A stretch of 48,649 nucleotides of DNA from Candidatus Kapaibacterium sp. (GTDB lineage Bacteria > Bacteroidota > Ignavibacteria > Kapaibacteriales > UBA4661): assembly GCA_025358765.1 (NCBI GenBank), contig JANYIG010000145.1, forward strand, positions 1-48,649, in the 5' to 3' direction. The notes under the pieces were generated by a model. The model had not been told where the DNA came from. It was given only the letters and a program-made list of their open reading frames with translations, and searched no databases. Positions 2,955 through 19,245 of this stretch are shown piece after piece. Positions within the stretch are counted from its first letter, which is position 1. Every line of letters begins with the position of its first letter. A program made the translations under genes and the position numbers.

Positions 2955-4655
2955 TCAAGCGCTGATGGGTGCTGACATACGCGGAATTTGCACGGTGAAT
3001 GTTGTTCCGCTGCCGACTTCGCTCTGGCATTCTATCAACCCACCGTGCGCGTCCACCGAGCGTTTCACAATAGCTAGCCCCAAACCAGTGCCGGGCGCAA
3101 GCCCTGTGTTTTTACCACGATGGAATAAATCAAAGATTTTCGGCAGGTCTTCTTCAGGAATGCCAATGCCTTTGTCTTGCACACGAAAAGCGATATGCGT
3201 GTCGGTGCAGATAACGTCGAACACTATATCCGTATCAATAGGTGAATATTTGAAAGCGTTGAGCAATAAATTCAGCAAAATGTAGCGAATTAATTGTTCA
3301 TCCAGATAGGGCGTTTTACACGCTGACAAAGGGTCGTGAAAGATAAAATTCACCGTCCGCTCTGCTCCGCGGTTGGCAGCAAAGGCTGTACAGGCTTCGT
3401 CTATAATCTGAGCGCACAACTCCGCAAGCTCGACGTTATGAGGACGGAAGGCAATACCTTCGGTTCCAGAACGTTCGATAAACAACACGTCCTCCAAAAG
3501 CTCCGTCATGCGCTGAATGCTACTTTCGATTCGGGAGAAGAAATTCTTCCGCTTTTCCTCGCTCAGATTCACGGCATTTTGCAGCAGTTCCGACGACGAA
3601 AGAATAATCGTCATTGGCGTACGGAACTCGTGCGAAACTAACGATACAAAGTGTGATTTGAGTTCGTTCAATTCTTTCTCTTTTTGTAGCGACGCACGAA
3701 TCTCGTTTTCCGCACGTTTCAGGATGCTCACGTCGGTGATGGCAGTAATAGCAAACTTCGCGTTTTGTTCGGTCGCAAATTTTGTCGTCGTGAAAAATAT
3801 ATCCACTCTATCCAACTTTTTGGTCGTCACCACGCGCTCGCCCATGATTTCTTCCATCATTGAATTGCCCAACAACTCACTCAGTCGTTCGATGGATTCC
3901 GCATGTTCTTGTGGAGGATACATGACGGTAAATGGCAGCCCGATAAGCTCTGTGGGTGATTCGTAGCCGATAATTCGGGCGTATGCTTGGTTGACACGAA
4001 CGTATTCACCTTGTTCGTTCACGACGGATAAACCAACGTTCACCGTGTCAAAAATAAGCGATAAAAGTTGTTCACTTTCGTGTAATGCCTGTTCTGCTTG
4101 CTTTTTTTCCGCAATTTCGCGGGTAAGCTCTTCGTTCATTTCTTGCACTTGGAGCGTTCGTTCAGCAACACGATGCTCAAGTTCTTCATTCAGCATTCGC
4201 ACTGTTGCTTCCACACGAGCGCGTTCCTCTGCTTCGCGCAAAGCACGGTCGCGCATATGCTGGTACTTGAGCGCTTGTTTGGTGAGGTCGGTAATGTCTT
4301 GAATGGAAAACAGCGCATAAAAGCCCAGTTCGTTGGGGTTTTTGAGCGGTGTAACGGTTGTGTGTTGAACGCGAAGCGAGCCACTCGGTAGTTGGCAGGG
4401 AATAATGTGCTTGTGAAGATGTGAGGAAAATACCGCGGGCAAACCACGCATAAAAACTTGTTCCAAACGGCGTTTGTACTTCATATTGGTCAACTGGGGA
4501 AAGCGTTGACGGATATCCATTCCCAAAATCTCATGCCGTGCAATGCCCGACCAATGCTCCATACAGGTATTCCAATGCACAACGGTAAAATCGTTCCGTA
4601 GAACAATCGTGCCGATAGGCATCTGGTCAAGCAATAACAATGAGGGAAGAAGCAT
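2955..4655 (-). CDS. PAS-PAS sensor histidine kinase (cytoplasmic)
   Basis: A 566-residue kinase with no transmembrane segment. Residues about 5-125 form a PAS domain (MPIGTIVLRNDFTVVHWN), followed by a long coiled coil (about 125-195), a second PAS domain (about 196-315, SLIFDTVNVGLSVVNEQG), a HisKA domain with the phospho-acceptor His342 in VSHEFRTPMT, and an HATPase domain with N-box Asn466 (LLNAFKYSP), DKGIGIP and GTGLGLAIVKR. All catalytic boxes look intact. It lies 50 bp downstream of the CheC-like gene on the same strand and probably shares its transcript. No partner response regulator is adjacent; the nearest is at 14.3 kb. The input signal is unknown. Confidence 0.9.
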   Translation of the reverse strand: MLLPSLLLLDQMPIGTIVLRNDFTVVHWNTCMEHWSGIARHEILGMDIRQRFPQLTNMKYKRRLEQVFMRGLPAVFSSHLHKHIIPCQLPSGSLRVQHTTVTPLKNPNELGFYALFSIQDITDLTKQALKYQHMRDRALREAEERARVEATVRMLNEELEHRVAERTLQVQEMNEELTREIAEKKQAEQALHESEQLLSLIFDTVNVGLSVVNEQGEYVRVNQAYARIIGYESPTELIGLPFTVMYPPQEHAESIERLSELLGNSMMEEIMGERVVTTKKLDRVDIFFTTTKFATEQNAKFAITAITDVSILKRAENEIRASLQKEKELNELKSHFVSLVSHEFRTPMTIILSSSELLQNAVNLSEEKRKNFFSRIESSIQRMTELLEDVLFIERSGTEGIAFRPHNVELAELCAQIIDEACTAFAANRGAERTVNFIFHDPLSACKTPYLDEQLIRYILLNLLLNAFKYSPIDTDIVFDVICTDTHIAFRVQDKGIGIPEEDLPKIFDLFHRGKNTGLAPGTGLGLAIVKRSVDAHGGLIECQSEVGSGTTFTVQIPRMSAPISA

Positions 4656-4705: not shown

Positions 4706-5311
4706 TTAGACAGCCGTTCCCGATTGAACGGAGGATAATACGGTCATCAACGCCTGAGGTTTTAAAAGCATGATGATACTCCCACAAACCGTGTATTGGT
4801 TTGCAATGGAGCAACACACCTCTGAAAGCACTATCACATCATTTGCCGTAAGTGTGCGAAGCGTAATAAGCTCGTCGGAAATGGTCTCGAAATACGTTGG
4901 TACGGAATAGCGTAGCTCGCCGCCGTGTTCAGCAAGAACCTCCATTATTCCATTGAGGAGGATATTGCCAATTTCCAGAAAAACACTATTGCGAATAGCG
5001 TCCATGTCCGTCGCGCCCTCATCGTCGTTGAGCAATAACAGAGCAAACTTTGCGGCGCGGTCAACGGAAAACACAAGGAACGCCTTGCCAGAGATTGCCT
5101 CCGAAAAATCAACCTCCACGACCGATGCCCGATACTGGCGTTCTGGCTCAAGATAGTTTGCCATTTCATGTTGCGAAAACACACGAACGGAGCCAATAGT
5201 AAGGGCTATCGTACTTTGAGTACCATCATTGATAATAGAGGCTGCGCGTTCCATCCCCGTTTGCAACAGCTGTTTGAGTGCTTCGATATATTTGTGGTTC
5301 AATATCATCAC
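4706..5311 (-). CDS. CheC-like phosphatase family protein with one intact active site
   Basis: A 201-residue protein of the CheC/CheX/FliY superfamily, whose members dephosphorylate CheY-P or similar receivers. The second pseudo-symmetric helix carries an intact D/S-x3-E-x2-N motif: Ser109, Glu113, Asn116 in NSVFLEIGN, followed by SVPTYF as in CheC. The first helix (residues about 11-25, ALKQLLQTGMERAAS) lacks the Glu and Asn, so only one active site is expected. It is first in a two-gene unit with the PAS-PAS kinase, which suggests that it tunes that kinase's output, but this is inference. No chemotaxis core genes are in the window. Confidence 0.75.
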   Translation of the reverse strand: MMILNHKYIEALKQLLQTGMERAASIINDGTQSTIALTIGSVRVFSQHEMANYLEPERQYRASVVEVDFSEAISGKAFLVFSVDRAAKFALLLLNDDEGATDMDAIRNSVFLEIGNILLNGIMEVLAEHGGELRYSVPTYFETISDELITLRTLTANDVIVLSEVCCSIANQYTVCGSIIMLLKPQALMTVLSSVQSGTAV

Positions 5312-5466: not shown

Positions 5467-5520
5467 GACAACCGTAATTTGTGTCCATCATCAACATTTA
5501 GTCATGGTCACAACTATTGT

Positions 5521-7767
5521 ATGAAGTCCTTTCCTACTGCCGCACTCAAAAGTACATACTCTAACACTGGAAAAATCACGCTGTTCAAAAAATTATTAGG
5601 TTTAGCGTGTTTAATTCTTGCGCTCTGCGGTTTGGTTCTTGTATTCTTGCGTCTTGAAATCGCTGCTTACGGCGAGCGCGATGATGTTCGTAATCTAAAC
5701 GTGTTTGTCCTCAAAGCCCATCGTCATGAGCGCGATTTCCTTGTCAACCGCTCTATGATTGAAATCCAGCGTTTTAATGAAGCTGTAATGGCGTGCGATT
5801 CCGTCCTGCAACCATATCAACAGGACAACAACGGGCGGGCGCTGCAAAGTTACATCAACGAGTACCGTCAGCACGTAAAAACTATCGTCGCAACAATGCA
5901 AGAGCGGGGTTTGAACGAAAACTCGGGCGCGGAGGGAGCATTCCGCAAAAGCGTTCACAGCATTGAGAATATCGTTGAACGTGCTGGTCAACATGAAATG
6001 ATGAATGCTTTGCTCCAAGCACGGCGCAACGAAAAGGACTTTATTTTACGCCGTCAAGACAAATACGTGACGGCGGTACAGCACACGATTGAAGACCTCC
6101 GTGCGGCATCTGCTCGTGCGCCACTTCCCCAAGCAACAAAGGAAGAGATTACCGTGCTTTCCGAAAATTACCTCAAAAACTTTGCGATATTGGTTGGTTT
6201 ATTCAAGAACATTGACGCGCTTGACACGCAGTCGCACAAGGATTTTGAGCAAATTAATCTTGTTATCGGCACGATGGTGCAACAGAAAGAATCGACTGCC
6301 ACTACGTATCGCTCGATATCGCTTATGGTGCTGCTTATAGCGCCTATTCTTGCCTTGTGGATAGCCGTTCGCACAGCGCGTAACATCTCTAATCCGGTTG
6401 TGGCGCTGGCTCACGGTGCAGACCGTGTTTCGCAGGGCGATTTTTCGGCGGTGATTGATGTCCACACACGGGATGAAATCAGCCATTTAGCGTTGTCATT
6501 TAACCTTATGGTCGAGAGCATCCGCGTGATTACCGAAGAACTCCATATCGAAAAGCAGGGTGTCGAGCAGAAAGTTCACGATGCTGTACAAACCATGCTG
6601 CGTGACAAATTATATCTTTCCAAGAGCGTCGAGACCATGCTTTCCTCCATTGAACGCTTTGCCAACGGCGATTTGACCACCCGCTTGCAAACGCAACATC
6701 ACGATGAACAAGGCGATATTCTCCGGCTTTACCACGGTTTTAATAGGGCGATTGACGATATTGAACAGGTGATGAGCAGTGTTGCGACGGCAGTATCTCA
6801 GACGGCAGCGGCAGGCATGACAATAACGAACGACACCAACGAGTTGAATGCTGGAGCGAAAGAACAAACACAGCAAACCTCCAACACCGCACGGCTCGTT
6901 GAGGAAATGGCGGCTATGACTTCGCAAGCAATGGATAGCGTCAATGTTGTTTCCATCTACGCCACACAAGCGCGGGAGAATGCGAAGAAGGGCGTTGCAA
7001 CGGTAGAACACACAACACATGGCATCCAATCTATTGTGGAGGCAACACGCCAGATGGAGCGCCAGATAGCATCGCTCACGAACCGCATAGAGAAAATTGA
7101 TGAGGTTGTTAGCACCATCCGCGAGATTGCAGATCAAACGAACATGCTTGCCTTGAATGCTTCTATCGAAGCGGCTCGTGCAGGTGAACACGGTCGTGGT
7201 TTTGCCGTCGTTGCCGACGAAGTAAAAAAACTCGCTGACCGCACGGCAGAAGCCACAAAGGAAATCACAGTAACTATTCGCAACGTACAACAAGAAGCAC
7301 ACAAGGCAGATGAATCCATGACGCTTGCCCGCCAAACGGTTCAAAACGGCATAGAATTGACGCAAGGTATTACCTACACATTTGAGGAAATTTTGAACGA
7401 CGCACTGCAAGTGTCATCCGCAATTTCGCAAATTCAGGCAAGCAGCAAAGAGCAAAAGCTCATGAGCGAAAAGGTAAGTGCAAACGTTCAAACTATAGCA
7501 ACGGTCGTGATGCAATCCGAGGACAATATCAAGCGTCTGGCAGGCATCGCTGGTGAACTTCAACGCTCGATGGAAGAAGTACAACGCAATTTGGAGCATT
7601 TTACGTTGTCGAAGAACACTGATGCTGCTGACGATTACTCTGCCGAACGACGAGCATATTTTGGTCTGCCACAGCACAAACCCCACAATTCCCACACAAA
7701 CGCTCTTTCGGTGGCAAACGCCTTCCCCAAAGCATTACCCAATGGCAGAGTATCTGCTTGGAATTAA
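5521..7767 (+). CDS. Methyl-accepting chemotaxis protein with HBM-like sensor domain
   Basis: A 748-residue transmembrane chemoreceptor. TM1 is about residues 24-44, TM2 about 265-284. Between them lies an all-helical sensor with two matching motifs, [11 protein letters not shown] (about 68-77) and [11 protein letters not shown] (about 168-178), the pattern of helical bimodular (HBM) domains that bind organic acids in McpS. A HAMP domain follows (about 285-340), then a second HAMP-like segment (about 376-418), and the signalling domain with the hairpin tip [20 protein letters not shown] and [21 protein letters not shown]. An in-frame TTG at 5479 would extend it by 14 residues; I chose ATG 5521. 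Cytoplasmic partners (CheA, CheW) are not in the window. Ligand is unknown. Confidence 0.9.
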
Positions 7768-11701: not shown

Positions 11702-11750
11702 ACTATAAAACCAAACTCTGGAATCACAGATCACGTCTATGATTCCAGAG
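11702..11750 (-). terminator. Intrinsic terminator of the TPR kinase gene
   Basis: CTCTGGAATCA (11716-11726) and TGATTCCAGAG (11740-11750) form a perfect 11 bp stem with a 13-nt loop. Read on the minus strand it is followed by TTTGGTTTTATAG. The upstream arm overlaps the last codons of the kinase, and the stop codon lies in the loop. Confidence 0.75.
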
Positions 11751-14010
11751 CTTCCATGTCCGAAGGCTGCAATAGCCTTGGCAGCGTGACGATAAACGTG
11801 CTGCCCTCTCCATACTCGCTTTCCGCCCACACGTACCCGCCGTGAAGCTCCACTATATGCTTTATGCTCGATAATCCCACGCCGTTCGAGGATTCGCCAC
11901 CTGTTGGTTTAGCAGAAAGCCGCTGGAAAAATCCGAAAAGTTTCTGTTTGTCATCGTCCGTCAAACCCGGTCCTTCGTCCTGTACTTCTAAACGAACTAT
12001 CGTATTCGTTGCCTGTAACCGAACATGGATGATTGTGTCGTAGAGGGAATATTTTACCGCATTACTGATTAGATTGTCAACTACTTGTGTTAAGCGTTTC
12101 CAATCACCATAGACAATGCACATACCATCAAACGAAACCTCAATTTGTTGTCGCTTACGAATGGTATGGTGTTGATACGTCGCAATCACGTCAGCACAGA
12201 GATCGGCAATGTTGACAGGGCGTTGGTGCAATTCGACTTTTCCAAGTTGAATCGCTGCCTGATCCAACAACTCTGCAATAAGGCTATACATATTCTGGGC
12301 GGATTTGACGATCATCTCTATCATTTTCGGTGCGTCCGGCGTTGTTAATCTCTCGCCTTGCAACAGCCGAGCTACACCCAGAATCGTCGTGAGGGGATTT
12401 TTAAGGTCGTGAGCGGCAATGCTCAACAGTTTGACTTTTACTTCGTTTTCTGCTTCCAATTTGGCATTGGTTTGAAGCACATCAATCACCACAGCGTGCA
12501 TATTTTGTGTTGATTGAACGAGTGCGTCGAGCCGCTGCTGGTTTGCAGGATGATCTGATTCGGGATGATGAAAGGATTCTGAAACTTCAGTCAAGGTCGA
12601 AAGAAGGTCTTTGATGTCGTGCGAGGCGATATGAAGAAACTTCATCTTGATTTCATTTGCTTCTTCCAGTTCATGGTTTGTGCTTTGCGACTGAAAAATA
12701 GTCTCTTGTAGTTGAGTATTGGTAAGCTGTATGCTCTGCGACTGCTCGGTCAGTGTTTGTTGTTGTTGCAAGATTTCGGCATTGGCTTCTGAAAGGGCTG
12801 AATTTTTTTCTACCAGCACTTTTTCCGAACGTTGTTTGATGCGATAACGATTGAAGAGCAATATCAGCACTGCTATCAACAAGATTACCCCAATAATAAG
12901 CGCATTGCGCCAGACCACCTGTAGTTTTTGGTTTTGTTCGAGCAATTGAATTTGACGCTCTTTTTCCGTTGTTTCATATTCAACTTGAATTTTAGCAATC
13001 TTTTGATTGTTCTCTTCACTGAAAATTGAATCGCGTACGACAATGTACTGTTTGTAATAGGCAAACGCCATTTTTTCATTCCGTAACGAGTCGTAGCTTT
13101 GAGAAAGTGTGAGAAGTGCTTCTTGTTTTAGCAGCCGTAGATTTTCTTTGTCCACTATCACGAACGATTGTTGAGCAATTTCTATGGCACGGTGAGCATT
13201 CCCTATTTTATTATTAATATCAGCAATGTTCAACAGAGTCATCGCTTCTCCTTCTTTGTCTCCTATCTTTTGACAAATCTGAAGCGCTTCCGACTCGTAT
13301 TCCAATGCGAGAGTATATTTTTTCTGGAGTGCGTACACAGCACCTATGCCCGCCATTGACGACCAAATTCGCTTTTGATTACCCAATTCTTTTTTTATTT
13401 TCAATCCTTGCAGATGATATTGCAGCGCTTGTTCATACTTGCCCTGATCAGCGGAAAGCGCTCCCATGTTGGTCAGTGAGTATGCTTGCGCTTGTTTATC
13501 CCCTATCTCTTGTGCTATTTTTAAGGCATCATTGTAATATCGTAAGGCTAATTCTGGTTGATGTTGGGTATCATGAACGATTCCGATACTATTAAGCGCT
13601 TTTGCTATTCCGCGCTTATTGCCAAGCTCTTGATAGGCTGTTAATGCTTTTATATCTGCTTCGAGCGCTAAAGCGTGTTTACCCTGTTTCCACAAAGCAA
13701 TCCCCATGTTGATAGAAGACAAGGCAATCCCTTCTTTGTATTGTATCTCTGATGCCACCTCTTGAGCATGTTTAGCATATAAAAACGATTGTTCAATATT
13801 GCTTCGAATTACTACTGTTGCAAGCTCATTTAACGATTTTACAAGCACAGTATCCGTTTTTCCCGATGTAGTGTACTGGCGTACGATAGTTTCGAGCGAA
13901 TCTACCGTTGCCTGTTGCCCTTTTAGTGGCACGACGTAAAGAATCAGACTCATACATATTAGTACAATATAAACCAAAGAGTGGTCTGTGTACAAACCGC
14001 GTTTTCTCAT
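11737..14010 (-). CDS. TPR sensor histidine kinase with two tandem H-box domains
   Basis: A 757-residue membrane kinase. A signal or anchor segment (about 12-28) is followed by some six tetratricopeptide repeats (about 60-330), a transmembrane helix (about 369-387), and a Gln-rich coiled coil. Then come two H-box regions: FLHIASHDIKDLLS with His464 and LLSIAAHDLKNPLT with His534, each preceded by similar EANEIKMK/EAENEVKVK helices. One HATPase domain follows (N-box Asn650, DEGPG, GVGLSSIKHIVE). The first H-box lacks the usual Asn/Arg-Thr-Pro part, so His534 is the likelier phospho-acceptor. It is divergent from the LytTR regulator gene at 14.3 kb, a plausible but unproven partner. Confidence 0.88.
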   Translation of the reverse strand: MRKRGLYTDHSLVYIVLICMSLILYVVPLKGQQATVDSLETIVRQYTTSGKTDTVLVKSLNELATVVIRSNIEQSFLYAKHAQEVASEIQYKEGIALSSINMGIALWKQGKHALALEADIKALTAYQELGNKRGIAKALNSIGIVHDTQHQPELALRYYNDALKIAQEIGDKQAQAYSLTNMGALSADQGKYEQALQYHLQGLKIKKELGNQKRIWSSMAGIGAVYALQKKYTLALEYESEALQICQKIGDKEGEAMTLLNIADINNKIGNAHRAIEIAQQSFVIVDKENLRLLKQEALLTLSQSYDSLRNEKMAFAYYKQYIVVRDSIFSEENNQKIAKIQVEYETTEKERQIQLLEQNQKLQVVWRNALIIGVILLIAVLILLFNRYRIKQRSEKVLVEKNSALSEANAEILQQQQTLTEQSQSIQLTNTQLQETIFQSQSTNHELEEANEIKMKFLHIASHDIKDLLSTLTEVSESFHHPESDHPANQQRLDALVQSTQNMHAVVIDVLQTNAKLEAENEVKVKLLSIAAHDLKNPLTTILGVARLLQGERLTTPDAPKMIEMIVKSAQNMYSLIAELLDQAAIQLGKVELHQRPVNIADLCADVIATYQHHTIRKRQQIEVSFDGMCIVYGDWKRLTQVVDNLISNAVKYSLYDTIIHVRLQATNTIVRLEVQDEGPGLTDDDKQKLFGFFQRLSAKPTGGESSNGVGLSSIKHIVELHGGYVWAESEYGEGSTFIVTLPRLLQPSDMEALES

Positions 14011-14019
14011 AATAATTCA

Positions 14020-14045
14020 TAATAATGTTGATGGGGTCATTATTA
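14020..14045. promoter_or_regulatory. 8-bp inverted repeat before the TPR kinase
   Basis: TAATAATG (14020-14027) and CATTATTA (14038-14045) are perfect inverted copies with a 10-nt spacer, ending 10 bp from the kinase start codon. It could be an operator or an mRNA hairpin over the ribosome binding region. AT-rich sequence makes chance occurrence possible. Confidence 0.3.
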
Positions 14046-14168
14046 AATATGTCCATATCTTTCGTAGCACTTTTGACTTCTCGTCGGTCAAGCACTCTCT
14101 ATCTTAAAGTAACGGCACAATAATAGGAAAATTGAACGGAAATAATATCTATATATTACCAACGTCCA

Positions 14169-14234
14169 CGGCGACTCAGCCGAAAAAAAGGACGGTTCGG
14201 CACAAGCCGATTGTTCTAACAACAACAATAGGCT
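14169..14234 (+). promoter_or_regulatory. Chain of overlapping stem-loops upstream of the LytTR regulator
   Basis: Four stems share arms in series: CGGC/GCCG (14169-14182), GCCGAA/TTCGGC (14179-14201), TCGGC/GCCGA (14197-14210) and AGCCgATTGTT/AACAATaGGCT (14205-14234, one mismatch). Neighbouring stems cannot form together, as in attenuators or riboswitch leaders. It lies about 90 bp before the regulator start. The rest of the 311 bp gap (14011-14321) shows no gene. Confidence 0.35.
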
Positions 14235-14321
14235 AAGTTTGTAAACAGATGGAATGATTATCTAAACTTCAATACTTGACAGCCATAGAAATTTGTGCCA
14301 CACGGTCTTTCTCAAAAACTC

Positions 14322-15095
14322 ATGCTGCGAACAGTCATTATAGACGATGACGAGATGGTCAGAAAAACCCTTGCCCTATTGCTAAAGGAATATTCTCCTG
14401 ATATAGCGATTGTGGGCGAGGCAGCAGCATTTCATGATGCCGTCCGTCTTTTGTATGAACATCAGCCTGATATTGTGTTTATGGATGTTCAACTCACTGA
14501 CACGACTGGTTTTGAAGTGCTGAATGCGTTTAACGAGAACGTGTTCGCAGTAATTATGATGAGTTCGTATAGTCAGTACGCTATCGAGGCATTTGATTAC
14601 GGCTCGAAAGGTTATCTTCTGAAACCCTTCGACGTAGAAAAACTGACCAGCGCGGTAGAACGTGCCCGCGCAACATTGCGCCTGCTCAAAGAAATACGGG
14701 AATACAAACAACAACTTGAAGAACAACAGCACCGCATCGCGCTCCCAACATCTATTATCATCAAATCAACAAAAGGCAATTTCACCACGTATTTGACAGA
14801 TATTATTTCCTGCTCTTCACACTATGGCTATACCAGAGTAGCACTACACAACCACACCACGCTTCTTTCTATCCACACATTAGCGGAATGGGAGCAATGG
14901 CTTCCAACAGGGGATTTCATGCGTATTCACCGTTCGCACATCATCAATAGACACCACATAGCTCAATGGGAGCACGATGGTAAAGAGGGAATTGTCCGCA
15001 TGTCGAATGATGAGATATTGGCTATATCAAGAACACATAAAGCCGATTTTATTGAACGTATTGAAACAAACCGACTAACAGACGACAAAGGATAA
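14322..15095 (+). CDS. LytTR-family response regulator
   Basis: A 257-residue response regulator. The receiver domain (about 1-120) has the acidic pocket VIIDDDE, phospho-acceptor Asp55 in IVFMDVQL and Lys101 in GYLLKPFD. After a coiled-coil linker rich in Glu and Gln (about 120-145) a LytTR DNA-binding domain runs to the end, with IIIKSTKGNFTTYLTDI and FMRIHRSHIINRHHI. Start is ATG 14322 (MLRTVIIDDDE); an upstream GTG at 14295 is less likely. It probably takes phosphate from one of the neighbouring kinases, most simply the divergent TPR kinase. DNA targets are unknown. Confidence 0.9.
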   Translation: MLRTVIIDDDEMVRKTLALLLKEYSPDIAIVGEAAAFHDAVRLLYEHQPDIVFMDVQLTDTTGFEVLNAFNENVFAVIMMSSYSQYAIEAFDYGSKGYLLKPFDVEKLTSAVERARATLRLLKEIREYKQQLEEQQHRIALPTSIIIKSTKGNFTTYLTDIISCSSHYGYTRVALHNHTTLLSIHTLAEWEQWLPTGDFMRIHRSHIINRHHIAQWEHDGKEGIVRMSNDEILAISRTHKADFIERIETNRLTDDKG

Positions 15096-15133
15096 GAATT
15101 TATATCACATTGGATTAGATAGAGGGTAGCATT

Positions 15134-16591
15134 ATGACCATGTTTCGCCATATCCATTTGCAAAGTACGACTACCGATTCTGACATGCAACAACCAAAAA
15201 AAAACTGGCAGATGATTATGTCGAGCCGATTGCAGCAGTTTGCGCTCCACAATAAAAACCGATTCCTCCCATATTTCTATCAACACAAGGCATTCCTACT
15301 ATCATTGACAATGTGGCTGGCGCTTCCAACGCTTTTTGTGAGCGTTGCGGCAGTGTTTTATACGCCATTGCATTATTTCCTTGAACTAAGTCTTCTTTAC
15401 GTTGTGTTGAAGACGTTGGTCAGCAAAGAACAAGAGCAGCAGAAATTTAAGACTAAACGAGAAACGCTACAAAACACAATAGACGAAATGATAATGCTCA
15501 TTCTTGAGGAACGAACGTCCGTACAAACTCAAGAAAAAGCAATATTAGATGCTTCACAGGAATTGCGGCAGATGATAGAGCATGATGTCGCTATGATATT
15601 GGCAGATATGGAACATTTTGCTTCTGGTAATGTGAATGTTCGGACATCTGGAGCAGTAACAGACAATATTCGTCCGCTCTACGGAGGATTTGATCAAGTT
15701 GTGCAAAAAATAGTGTCGTTTGCTACATCAGTACAAGAGACATCGGCAAACGCGCTTCAAGCAACCGTCAAGGTCACGCAGCGTGCTGAAGATCTGTCGG
15801 AAACAATGCTCACACAAACAACTAAGCAGACGCAACTTATTGTTGAATCAATTAAAGCAACGCAAGCAATCATGGTCACAAGCACCGAACAGATGACCGT
15901 TGCTGTTGAGGAAGCTACTCAGGCACAGCGGGAAGCCACCGCAAGCGGAACCATTGTGAATGAAACAATCAATGGCATTCAACGCATTGCCTTGACGATT
16001 ACTTCTGTTGCCGACATTATTGCTTTATTGAAAAAAAGCAGTCAAGCAATTGGAGACACGACTACCATGATTGCCGAAGTAGCAGACAGAACAAACCTTA
16101 TTGCATTGAATGCTGCCATAGAAGCAGCACGGGCTGGTGAGCATGGACGCGGCTTCACAGTGGTTGCTGATGAAATCCGCAAGCTCGCCGAGTGTACACA
16201 AAAAGCGACGAAAGAAATTACGACTACCATCAAGCAGATACAGCACCAAACATCCGAAGCCACTGCAGAGATGGAACATGGATTATTAGCAATTCGCACA
16301 CAGCAACAGCAGGCGCAGAAAGCCGGAGATTCTCTTCAGCGTATTATTGAGCGGGTAGAAACAATGTCGCATGTTATTGACTGCATAGCCAATATTAATC
16401 AAAAACAAATCAAGGCTATGAATGGAATCGCCGACAACGTGAATACTATCGTAGGCATAACAGAGCGAGCGGCTATAGCAATGGGCGAAACTGCGTGGAG
16501 CATGGAAGGCATACAAGCAATGATGAAAAAATTAGCAAGGCTTGCTGCTAGCCAATTCAAAATAAAACGCGAAGCGAAGCTGAATCATTAG
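15134..16591 (+). CDS. Methyl-accepting chemotaxis protein without extracytoplasmic sensor domain
   Basis: A 485-residue chemoreceptor. Two hydrophobic stretches (about 53-76 and 81-96) are separated by only a few residues, so they form a hairpin with no periplasmic sensor. A coiled coil (about 97-150) and a HAMP-like segment (about 155-195, [20 protein letters not shown]) lead to a full signalling domain with the tip [20 protein letters not shown] and [21 protein letters not shown]. Any input must come from the membrane, the cytoplasm or another protein. The next gene encodes a free globin. Gap to the upstream regulator is 38 bp, so the two may be co-transcribed. Confidence 0.9.
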
Positions 16592-16754
16592 GCTCGGAGC
16601 TGTTTCAGACGCAAAATATGCAGCCCCAATCAATCCCCAACCAATCCATAATTTAATGAACTTATTATCACTCATCGTTCGCAACCAATGACGGCAGTAA
16701 TGATATACATAAAACAAAGTTCCTGTTTTTTTTCACTCATCGAAGGTCTCTATA

Positions 16755-17195
16755 ATGACAACGACAAATAATATTGTTTTGACAAGTAATGAAATTGAGC
16801 TTGTTCAATCTACGTTTACCAAGGTATTGCATATTTCAGATGCTGCTGCCACATTATTCTACAATCGTCTCTTTGAGCTTGATCCGTCAGTCAGACATCT
16901 TTTTCCAGCAGAGATAACGGAACAAAAGAAAAAACTGATGGGTACTCTAAAAACAGTTGTGTTTAGCTTACGCCAACTTGAAACGATTGTTCCTGCTATT
17001 GAGGAATTAGGGCAACGCCACGTACGGTATAAAGTAGAGGAAAGGCATTACGAAACCGTTGGTGCGTCTTTATTATGGGCATTGGAACAAGGGTTAGGAA
17101 AAGACTTCACTGCTGAGGTAAAAAGTGCATGGGTTTCTGCATATACCCTCATATCGAACACAATGAAAAATGCGGCACATGGTGTTTCCGCATAG
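16755..17195 (+). CDS. Single-domain bacterial haemoglobin (Vitreoscilla/flavohaemoglobin type)
   Basis: A 146-residue globin aligning over its whole length with Vitreoscilla haemoglobin and the globin part of flavohaemoglobins. The proximal haem ligand is His89 (LGQRHVRYKV), Tyr36 is at B10 (TLFYNRLF), a Gln near 57 fits E7, and the HYETVG segment (98-103) and the AWVSAY helix match. No reductase domain follows. Family members bind O2 or NO and detoxify NO or serve O2 supply or sensing. It is 163 bp downstream of the sensor-less chemoreceptor, with no clear Shine-Dalgarno site. Confidence 0.9.
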   Translation: MTTTNNIVLTSNEIELVQSTFTKVLHISDAAATLFYNRLFELDPSVRHLFPAEITEQKKKLMGTLKTVVFSLRQLETIVPAIEELGQRHVRYKVEERHYETVGASLLWALEQGLGKDFTAEVKSAWVSAYTLISNTMKNAAHGVSA

Positions 17196-17252
17196 TTTTC
17201 CTCTGTAACCTTCGGAACATAGACGAAGCATCGTGTTTGATATATTCAATTT

Positions 17253-17458
17253 TTGTAACTGGTCAGGTAGATGTTTTGCTCTTTTGTTAAAATATGGGCT
17301 AAAATTTACAATAAACTCTGAAAATTGCCTAATTTTTTACGATTCTTATTGCCGTTTTTACAAAATCATCTAAATTTTGGAGAAATTGGAATAATGACAA
17401 CAGGAAAAGTGCCGAAATTTATCGAAAAACGCCAATTTTTAGACCTGACCAGTTACAA
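17253..17458. mobile_element. MITE-like element with perfect 16-bp terminal inverted repeats
   Basis: TTGTAACTGGTCAGGT at 17253-17268 is the exact inverse of ACCTGACCAGTTACAA at 17443-17458, bounding about 206 bp of AT-rich DNA. TTCAAT lies just outside both ends (17245-17250 and 17460-17465), a possible target duplication though not flush with the repeats. No transposase is inside; a 25-codon frame from ATG 17394 runs through the right repeat and is probably accidental. The element fills most of the 325 bp gap between the globin and the next kinase; the remainder holds nothing I can support. Confidence 0.6.
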
Positions 17459-17520
17459 CTTCAATAGATAAGAACAAAGTCTAAGGACAATTTACACGCT
17501 CATTATTTTTGAAGGGCGAC

Positions 17521-19245
17521 ATGGATACGCTTTCTATAAAAAAAGGATATCGCACCACGATTGCACTACAACACCAATTCAAGAAAAAATCATTGTTAGC
17601 TGGATTTATTTCAGACCAACAATATAATAATGGTGAGTTTTGTCAATTTGAGAGGCTACTTATGCGTGTGGAACCCGAAGTTTTATGCAAATCATTGATT
17701 GAGGAGGCACTGACACCACAATTATTTTATCACCCACAAACGGGGGATATTATTGTGGCAAACCCAGCGTTATGTAAGTTTTTAGGGTATAGTCACCATG
17801 AAATTGTACGTAAAAACCTTATAGATTTGATTCACCCTGAAGACCGACGGTTTGAACAAGAGTTGTTTTTTGACAGCCGAAAGAATAATAAAAATAATGA
17901 GACGAGTTCAGTGAAACGATACTGGACAAAATCTGGTGAACTTCTTTGGGTTATTCTGTCAGCAAAACGTATTACTGATGAACAAGGAGAAGTAGTCTTT
18001 GTTATGGCTACCCTTCAAGATGTTAGCTCGTTTAAACAAACAGAGGAAAAATTCTTGGGGTTAATCGGACATCTGGAGCATCGGTTGAGCGAATCTTCGC
18101 ACGAAATTGAGCAGTTACGGTCACAAGTCAAAAAGACAGACTCCTTCCGACAGAAATTTGTTGAAACCGCCTCACACGAATTTCGCACCCCATTAACGGT
18201 TATCCAAACAAACCTTGAAATTGTTCAGCGTTACAAAGATAAATTAAATGAAGCGGCAATCAATCAACGCTTTACTTCCATTTATGAGGGAATTCAGCAT
18301 ATCACAGTCCTGTTGGATAATGCCTTGCATATTGAAAGTCTTACACGTCAAGAACTTTTGACGGATATATCGGATGATTGTTTGAGTAATGAGAACGAAG
18401 AGCAGGTATTGGTACAAGTCCCAGAATTGGGTGTTGCGGTTGTAAATCCGGCGCATAAGAACAAACGAGATGACTTATTGGCTCTTCAACAAGGCTCGCA
18501 AGAAGAAGATATAAAAATAATGATCCATGATTTACAAAACCCTCTTTCGAGTGTTATGCTCATGGCAACATCCATTGAGCGAAATTGGCACAAGATGTCT
18601 TTGCTGGAAATCAAGGGTGCATTGCAAGCCGTACAACGCAATACAATGCGGATGAAAAATATGATAACCCAATTTCTGGAGGTTAGTTCATTGGAAAACA
18701 TGGTTATGACTGATGCACAGCAGAGGGTGGATCTTGTAGAATTTATCCAAACAGTTGTTGATGAGCATAAAGAGCAAGCAGCAGCAAAACATCTCACACT
18801 CCATTTTAAATCAGATATTGAAACAGCATTTATTACGAGCAGCAAAGATTCGTTGACTCGCATTATCGAAAATATATTGTCTAATGCTTTGAAGTACTCG
18901 TATCAGAACACAGCAGTCAATGTTTGTATTGCGCCCGTGTCTATCTCCTCTGCCAGAAAACGGTTTGAAAGAAAAACCGCGAACCGTAAGACAGAACATC
19001 TCGAACAATATGTTCGTATAGCAATTACCAATCAAGGTCAAGGAATTCGTGATGAGGATATGGGTCGTTTGTTCACCAAGTTTGGGCGTTTGTCGGCTCA
19101 TCCGATGGCGGGAGAATCTTCAACAGGATTAGGTTTGTGGATTGTTAAACGGTTAGTTGAGTTTATACAAGGACACATTTGGTGTGAGAGTACGTACGGC
19201 GAAGAGGCGACATTTTTTGTGGAGCTTCCCCTGGCTCGTACGTAA
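17521..19245 (+). CDS. PAS sensor histidine kinase with two tandem H-box domains (cytoplasmic)
   Basis: A 574-residue soluble kinase. A PAS domain spans about 58-175 (LFYHPQTGDIIVANPALCKFLGY, with the PAC part near 140-170), followed by a first HisKA with FVETASHEFRTPLTV and His219. A linker leads to a second H-box KIMIHDLQNPLSSV with His336, then one HATPase domain (N-box Asn455 in LSNALKYS, NQGQGI, STGLGLWIVKRLVE). The C-terminal region is strikingly like the TPR kinase at 11.7-14 kb, both with SAxPxxGESS before the G2 box, so the two are related. I chose ATG 17521 over TTG 17509. No regulator gene follows. Confidence 0.88.
   Translation: MDTLSIKKGYRTTIALQHQFKKKSLLAGFISDQQYNNGEFCQFERLLMRVEPEVLCKSLIEEALTPQLFYHPQTGDIIVANPALCKFLGYSHHEIVRKNLIDLIHPEDRRFEQELFFDSRKNNKNNETSSVKRYWTKSGELLWVILSAKRITDEQGEVVFVMATLQDVSSFKQTEEKFLGLIGHLEHRLSESSHEIEQLRSQVKKTDSFRQKFVETASHEFRTPLTVIQTNLEIVQRYKDKLNEAAINQRFTSIYEGIQHITVLLDNALHIESLTRQELLTDISDDCLSNENEEQVLVQVPELGVAVVNPAHKNKRDDLLALQQGSQEEDIKIMIHDLQNPLSSVMLMATSIERNWHKMSLLEIKGALQAVQRNTMRMKNMITQFLEVSSLENMVMTDAQQRVDLVEFIQTVVDEHKEQAAAKHLTLHFKSDIETAFITSSKDSLTRIIENILSNALKYSYQNTAVNVCIAPVSISSARKRFERKTANRKTEHLEQYVRIAITNQGQGIRDEDMGRLFTKFGRLSAHPMAGESSTGLGLWIVKRLVEFIQGHIWCESTYGEEATFFVELPLART

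Follow-up and report, generated by a model that had tools for sequence, protein, structure and literature searches.

Domain databases list a few HisKA-HisKA-HATPase architectures, and two-component kinases with more than one HisKA domain are, to our knowledge, rarely seen. Our literature search, in which subscription journals were thinly covered, found no description of a tandem HisKA. Among the closest described systems, HisKA proteins without a HATPase domain have been suggested to have a phosphotransfer or phosphatase role (PMC5847659), the DHp-CA module of DivL is proven to read a regulator in its phosphorylated form (PMC4211667), and CheA proteins that combine several Hpt domains with a single ATPase demonstrate that extra phospho-His domains are tolerated and used (PMC10782961). 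The kinase described here, P0001, is encoded in a 48,649-nucleotide stretch of Candidatus Kapaibacterium sp. (contig JANYIG010000145.1; the window), where its features are as follows:

17521..19245, + strand: P0001, a 574-residue histidine kinase with the order PAS-DHp1-linker-DHp2-CA (open reading frame and translation, Pfam domains, hydropathy)
17737..18024, + strand: PAS domain, residues 73-168 (PF00989, 50.2 bits; PF13426, 47.9 bits)
18148..18342, + strand: DHp1, the first HisKA domain, residues 210-274 (PF00512, HisKA tree, model)
18175-18177, + strand: codon of His219 in the H-box SHEFRTPLT, a motif starting at residue 218
18343..18498, + strand: variable linker between DHp1 and DHp2, residues 275-326 (17% identity to the paralogue P0003; low pLDDT)
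18499..18702, + strand: DHp2, the second HisKA domain, residues 327-394 (PF00512, HisKA tree)
18526-18528, + strand: codon of His336 in the H-box IHDLQNPLS, a motif starting at residue 335
18847..19236, + strand: CA (HATPase_c) domain, residues 443-572 (PF02518, 72.8 bits)
19030-19032, + strand: Asn504 in place of Asp in the G1 box of the CA domain

The reading frame of P0001 is open from its ATG, and Pfam recognizes a single PAS and a single HATPase_c domain in the product. The first-pass annotation of this DNA described a soluble kinase with two intact-looking H-boxes in front of one ATPase domain, and both parts of that description were confirmed. We found no membrane segment in P0001 (the best 19-residue hydropathy was 0.92), and His219 and His336 are located as claimed. 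When each region was scanned alone against PF00512, for which the Pfam cut-off is 26.9 bits, the profile recognized both independently, DHp1 at 41.7 bits (E 1.2e-10) and DHp2 at 32.8 bits (E 7e-8). P0001 therefore departs from the architecture of one HisKA per HATPase and is a variant inside the HisKA kinases, with two HisKA domains and one HATPase. No Hpt (P1) or CheW-like domain was matched in P0001 by Pfam at E values up to 10.

The same tandem occurs in a second protein of this genome, which is encoded on another contig:

G000:C76:1994-3208: P0003, a 404-residue tandem HisKA kinase without a PAS domain

P0003 is 43% identical to P0001, and its two H-boxes, SHEFRTPLT (47.5 bits) and VHELKNPLA (41.7 bits), both retain the His, with no sensor ahead of DHp1. 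An H-box arising by chance was ruled out, given that both domains of P0001 exceed the Pfam cut-off and that the tandem is repeated in P0003. An assembly chimera is also unlikely, given that the same tandem lies on two separate contigs at this level of identity.

We then considered how widespread the arrangement is. The genome contains 117 HisKA domains over the cut-off, in about 115 HisKA kinases, and two per open reading frame are found only in P0001 and P0003, so the earlier statement that normal kinases have one HisKA holds in this genome with these two exceptions. A search with a profile of the tandem region, which would miss tandems built from unrelated DHp domains, found no other tandem, either across 123 genomes of the order or in sampled genomes of the phylum (395) and the class (391), two sets that overlap in part. 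Tandems with other DHp types may therefore exist in the sister genomes. Among 137 kinase open reading frames of relatives and diverse bacteria, no tandem was present besides the window's own copy. A scan of genome contigs returned ordinary PAS kinases only; its loci were chosen by the motif ASHEFRTP, and the invariance of that motif in the resulting alignments (A3 and A7) is therefore uninformative. A mixed alignment (A4) was left out because DHp1 fragments were placed onto DHp2. The homologues, in which one of the two HisKA domains might have proved unrecognizable and not conserved, did not contradict the first-pass annotation, the first domain being known from two proteins only. Collectively, these searches indicate that the tandem is real, rare and lineage specific.

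The carboxy-terminal half of P0001 resembles a familiar kinase. In the predicted structure, residues 317-574 match WalK and Thermotoga maritima HK853 at Z scores of about 22, with 23-28% identity, and DHp2-CA is thus, as modeled, a normal kinase core. His336 is invariant across 24 aligned sequences and is followed directly by the CA domain, as in HisKA-type sensor kinases, according to both Pfam and the structure match. When CA domains are aligned, P0001 has the invariant residues of three ATP-binding motifs, namely the N-box Asn, the F-box Phe and the Gly residues of G2. The G1 box reads NQGQG, with Asn at a position where 118 of the 122 aligned CA domains of the genome have Asp and four have Asn; P0003 keeps the Asp. 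Asn at this position is rare yet found in the kinases ThkA and VanS (PMC10017428), so the P0001 kinase need not be dead, although its activity may be weak.

The two HisKA domains of P0001 have different ancestries. In a tree built from 118 of this genome's HisKA domains, the DHp1 domains of P0001 and P0003 are sisters (support 100/99) among SHEFRTPL-type PAS kinases, and the DHp2 pair falls in the large HDLKNPL group. Internal duplication was ruled out for these two proteins, given that DHp1 falls in one HisKA group and DHp2 in another; by its phylogenetic placement, the tandem is a gene fusion, the joining of two different HisKA types. P0001 and P0003 also cluster in a tree of DHp-CA cores (95/63), where their nearest neighbors are short single-HisKA kinases of a sister genus, L032 of genome G007 (342 aa) and L033 of genome G005 (314 aa). 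The P0001 locus and both of these genomes share the gene order TPR kinase, LytTR regulator, MCP-like protein, globin and short kinase, and L032 and L033, which lie in the same cluster as P0001, are thus its positional orthologues. Given that these orthologues have a single HisKA, PAS-DHp1 would be the gained part, and most simply PAS and DHp1 were gained in the window's lineage before the duplication that gave rise to P0001 and P0003. The orthologues manage without DHp1, so it is dispensable for the basic kinase. The gene neighboring P0003 was searched for in the sister genomes and was not found.

Upstream of P0001, the shared gene order includes the following:

11737-14010, - strand: P0002, a TPR kinase and the second tandem HisKA kinase of the window, with its HisKA units at 12226-12672
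14295..15095, + strand: REC-LytTR response regulator (PF00072, PF04397), a candidate partner, with gene order kept in G005 and G007
16755..17195, + strand: single-domain globin adjoining P0001 (PF00042, 54.9 bits), with orthologues in G005 and G007

The LytTR regulator is a candidate partner of P0001 by position only. The signaling cluster (window 11737-19245, L268 and L269) is conserved in two genera, and its MCP-like protein lacks a HAMP match. The sister-genus cluster additionally contains a DUF5694 gene, and G005 has two globins. Elsewhere in the window, a gene at 4706-5311 (- strand), which adjoins an MCP gene (5479-7767) and a PAS-PAS-HisKA kinase gene (2955-4655), encodes a protein of 201 aa whose CheX-like match lies below threshold (20.2 bits). 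Related single-HisKA kinases of the sister genus (L031:1045-2379, L036:609-1916 and L091:1426-2706) share a conserved C-terminal tail of about 130 aa past the HATPase, which by eye resembles a YHS domain; in L031 it has no Pfam match. A 768-aa open reading frame on a further contig of the window's genome (G000:C147:10307-12610, L186) ends in a HisKA domain with no in-frame HATPase behind it, and it may be either a CA-less HisKA protein or a frameshift.

P0002, which lies 3.5 kb from P0001, provides a different kind of tandem. Its two HisKA-like units are 70 residues apart, at His464 (SHDIKDLLS, 14.8 bits) and His534 (AHDLKNPLT, 51.8 bits), and the first unit is the sister of the second in the HisKA tree, and internal duplication was accepted for this protein. 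In the first unit the H-box Pro is missing from each of the three orthologues, and the G007 orthologue has Asn where the His would be. Unlike DHp1 of P0001, this extra HisKA is degenerate and presumably structural.

In DHp1 of P0001 there is no sign of degeneration. P0001 and P0003 are 57% identical across DHp1 and 46% across the CA domain, with 41% for DHp2 and 17% for the linker, and the H-box helix is 83% identical in DHp1 versus 39% in DHp2 (Fisher p = 0.003). For ordinary kinase pairs of this genome with CA identities of 42-50%, the same helix is 56 +/- 13% identical; values of at least 83% occur in 2.3% of these 399 pairs and values of at most 39% in 10.5%, in a comparison where the 399 pairs are not independent and the tandem side is one pair from one genome. 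At four-fold sites, P0001 and P0003 share the third base at 3 of 7 positions in the helix and 3 of 21 in the CA domain. Recent gene conversion was not supported as the cause of the DHp1 conservation, given that the synonymous positions have diverged. On this moderate evidence, the constraint on DHp1 appears stronger than that on a normal HisKA, and the constraint on DHp2 weaker. Of the two HisKA domains, the added one is better preserved and thus probably has its own job.

We considered that this job could be purely architectural, with DHp1 acting as a second dimerization and signal-coupling domain and His219 taking part in no phosphate chemistry. In an AlphaFold2 model of residues 50-300 (mean pLDDT 85), the PAS exit helix runs straight into the first helix of DHp1, and the second hairpin helix comes next; such a continuous helix is what is expected of a coupling element. 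A structure search with this PAS-DHp1 model returned PAS folds at Z scores of about 15, and DHp1 alone was barely covered. P0002 likewise shows that a DHp repeat with a structural role could exist in this lineage, its first HisKA being without the Pro in 3 of 3 orthologues and without the His in one. However, both P0001 and P0003 keep His219, the Glu next to it and the Thr-Pro of the H-box intact, no compared stretch is more conserved than the H-box helix, which also stands above ordinary kinases of equal divergence, and P0003 retains DHp1 with no sensor in front of it. The sequence evidence leans against a merely structural DHp1, and we regard this explanation as unlikely.

The first-pass annotation had left a choice between one structural dimerization domain and two alternative phospho-sites. 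It did not note the fusion origin of DHp1, the presence of DHp1 in a paralogue, or the degenerate second tandem HisKA of the neighboring kinase at 11737-14010. A putative second phospho-site fits the evidence better than a merely structural domain, in that both motifs are complete and the DHp1 helix is 83% identical against the 56 +/- 13% of ordinary pairs, and alternative sites for the same ATPase would fit less well than a site that faces a regulator. The single CA domain could in principle phosphorylate both His336 and His219, through a swing on the flexible linker or in trans within the dimer, with each site serving its own regulator. Both H-boxes are complete, multi-Hpt CheA proteins with a single ATPase are a familiar case (PMC10782961), and the linker is predicted to be disordered at residues 272-313, leaving room for such a reach. 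These residues have pLDDT values below 50 in the full-length model, which shows both DHp1 and DHp2 as hairpins and is weak overall (mean pLDDT 59.7). Against this, the CA domain is tied to DHp2 and models as part of a normal DHp-CA core, DHp1 belongs to another HisKA group so that the CA would be serving a foreign DHp, and the G1-box Asp of P0001 is an Asn. Autophosphorylation at both sites thus seems rather improbable to us.

The difference between the paralogues at the G1 box raises the further idea that P0001 is a weak or noncatalytic sensor subunit that pairs through DHp1 with the sensorless P0003, whose CA is of the consensus type, so that the pair makes one kinase. P0001 has the PAS domain and the Asn, P0003 has no PAS domain and the normal Asp, the pair is best conserved in DHp1, and the DHp2-CA branch of P0001 is the longer (1.39 versus 0.48). 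This idea has little to recommend it overall: the two genes lie on different contigs, the Asn is compatible with function as in ThkA and VanS (PMC10017428), and the remaining catalytic boxes of P0001 are intact.

The explanation that we prefer, and that we would place just short of an even chance, is that P0001 has an ordinary DHp2-CA core to which a PAS-HisKA unit was fused, with DHp1 as a second regulator-facing station that tunes the core. We hypothesize that a PAS-HisKA piece from a different kinase group, without its own HATPase, was joined to the amino terminus of a soluble HisKA core. The CA domain would autophosphorylate His336 on DHp2 as usual, and the PAS domain would drive DHp1 through the continuous helix. 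DHp1 would in turn either exchange phosphate with a receiver through His219, by phosphotransfer or dephosphorylation, or read the state of the receiver, and would thereby tune the DHp2-CA core. DHp1 would in this way be a functional second site for response-regulator docking and for phosphotransfer or phosphatase activity. Several points count against this proposal: the SHEFRTPL motif is conserved within its HisKA group anyway, P0001 carries no fused receiver, and the DHp1 surface may be kept for stability as a dimerization and signal-coupling domain. A stronger form of the proposal, which we consider doubtful, is that a single ATPase goes with two functional phospho-His stations, located on DHp domains of separate ancestry, and that phosphate exchange with the regulator sets the activity of the core, which would place a reader and a writer in one polypeptide.

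The state before the gain (an orthologue with one HisKA in the corresponding locus), the state after it (the pair of tandem paralogues) and a degenerate contrast (P0002) are all at hand. Together, these three states make testable both the role of a DHp domain without its own ATPase and the way in which new phospho-sites are added to signaling proteins.

In comparison with known systems, P0001 shares its DHp2-CA core with WalK and T. maritima HK853 and differs from them in having a complete HisKA of another group between the PAS domain and the core, as well as the G1-box Asn. The sister-genus kinases of G007 and G005 occupy the same cluster position and are its closest DHp-CA relatives, but they lack both PAS and DHp1. 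The proteins described as a "possible incomplete histidine kinase" (PMC5847659) share a PAS-HisKA unit whose His is intact and which no HATPase immediately follows, whereas in P0001 this unit is fused to a complete DHp-CA kinase. Multi-Hpt CheA proteins (PMC10782961) likewise place several phospho-His domains ahead of a single ATPase, but these are Hpt (P1) domains accompanied by CheA/CheW domains, and those of P0001 are HisKA. DivL (PMC4211667) is the precedent for a DHp-CA module that serves as an input by reading a response regulator; it has a single DHp and a Tyr where the His would be, whereas P0001 keeps both His219 and His336 and was for that reason rejected as a DivL-type pseudokinase.
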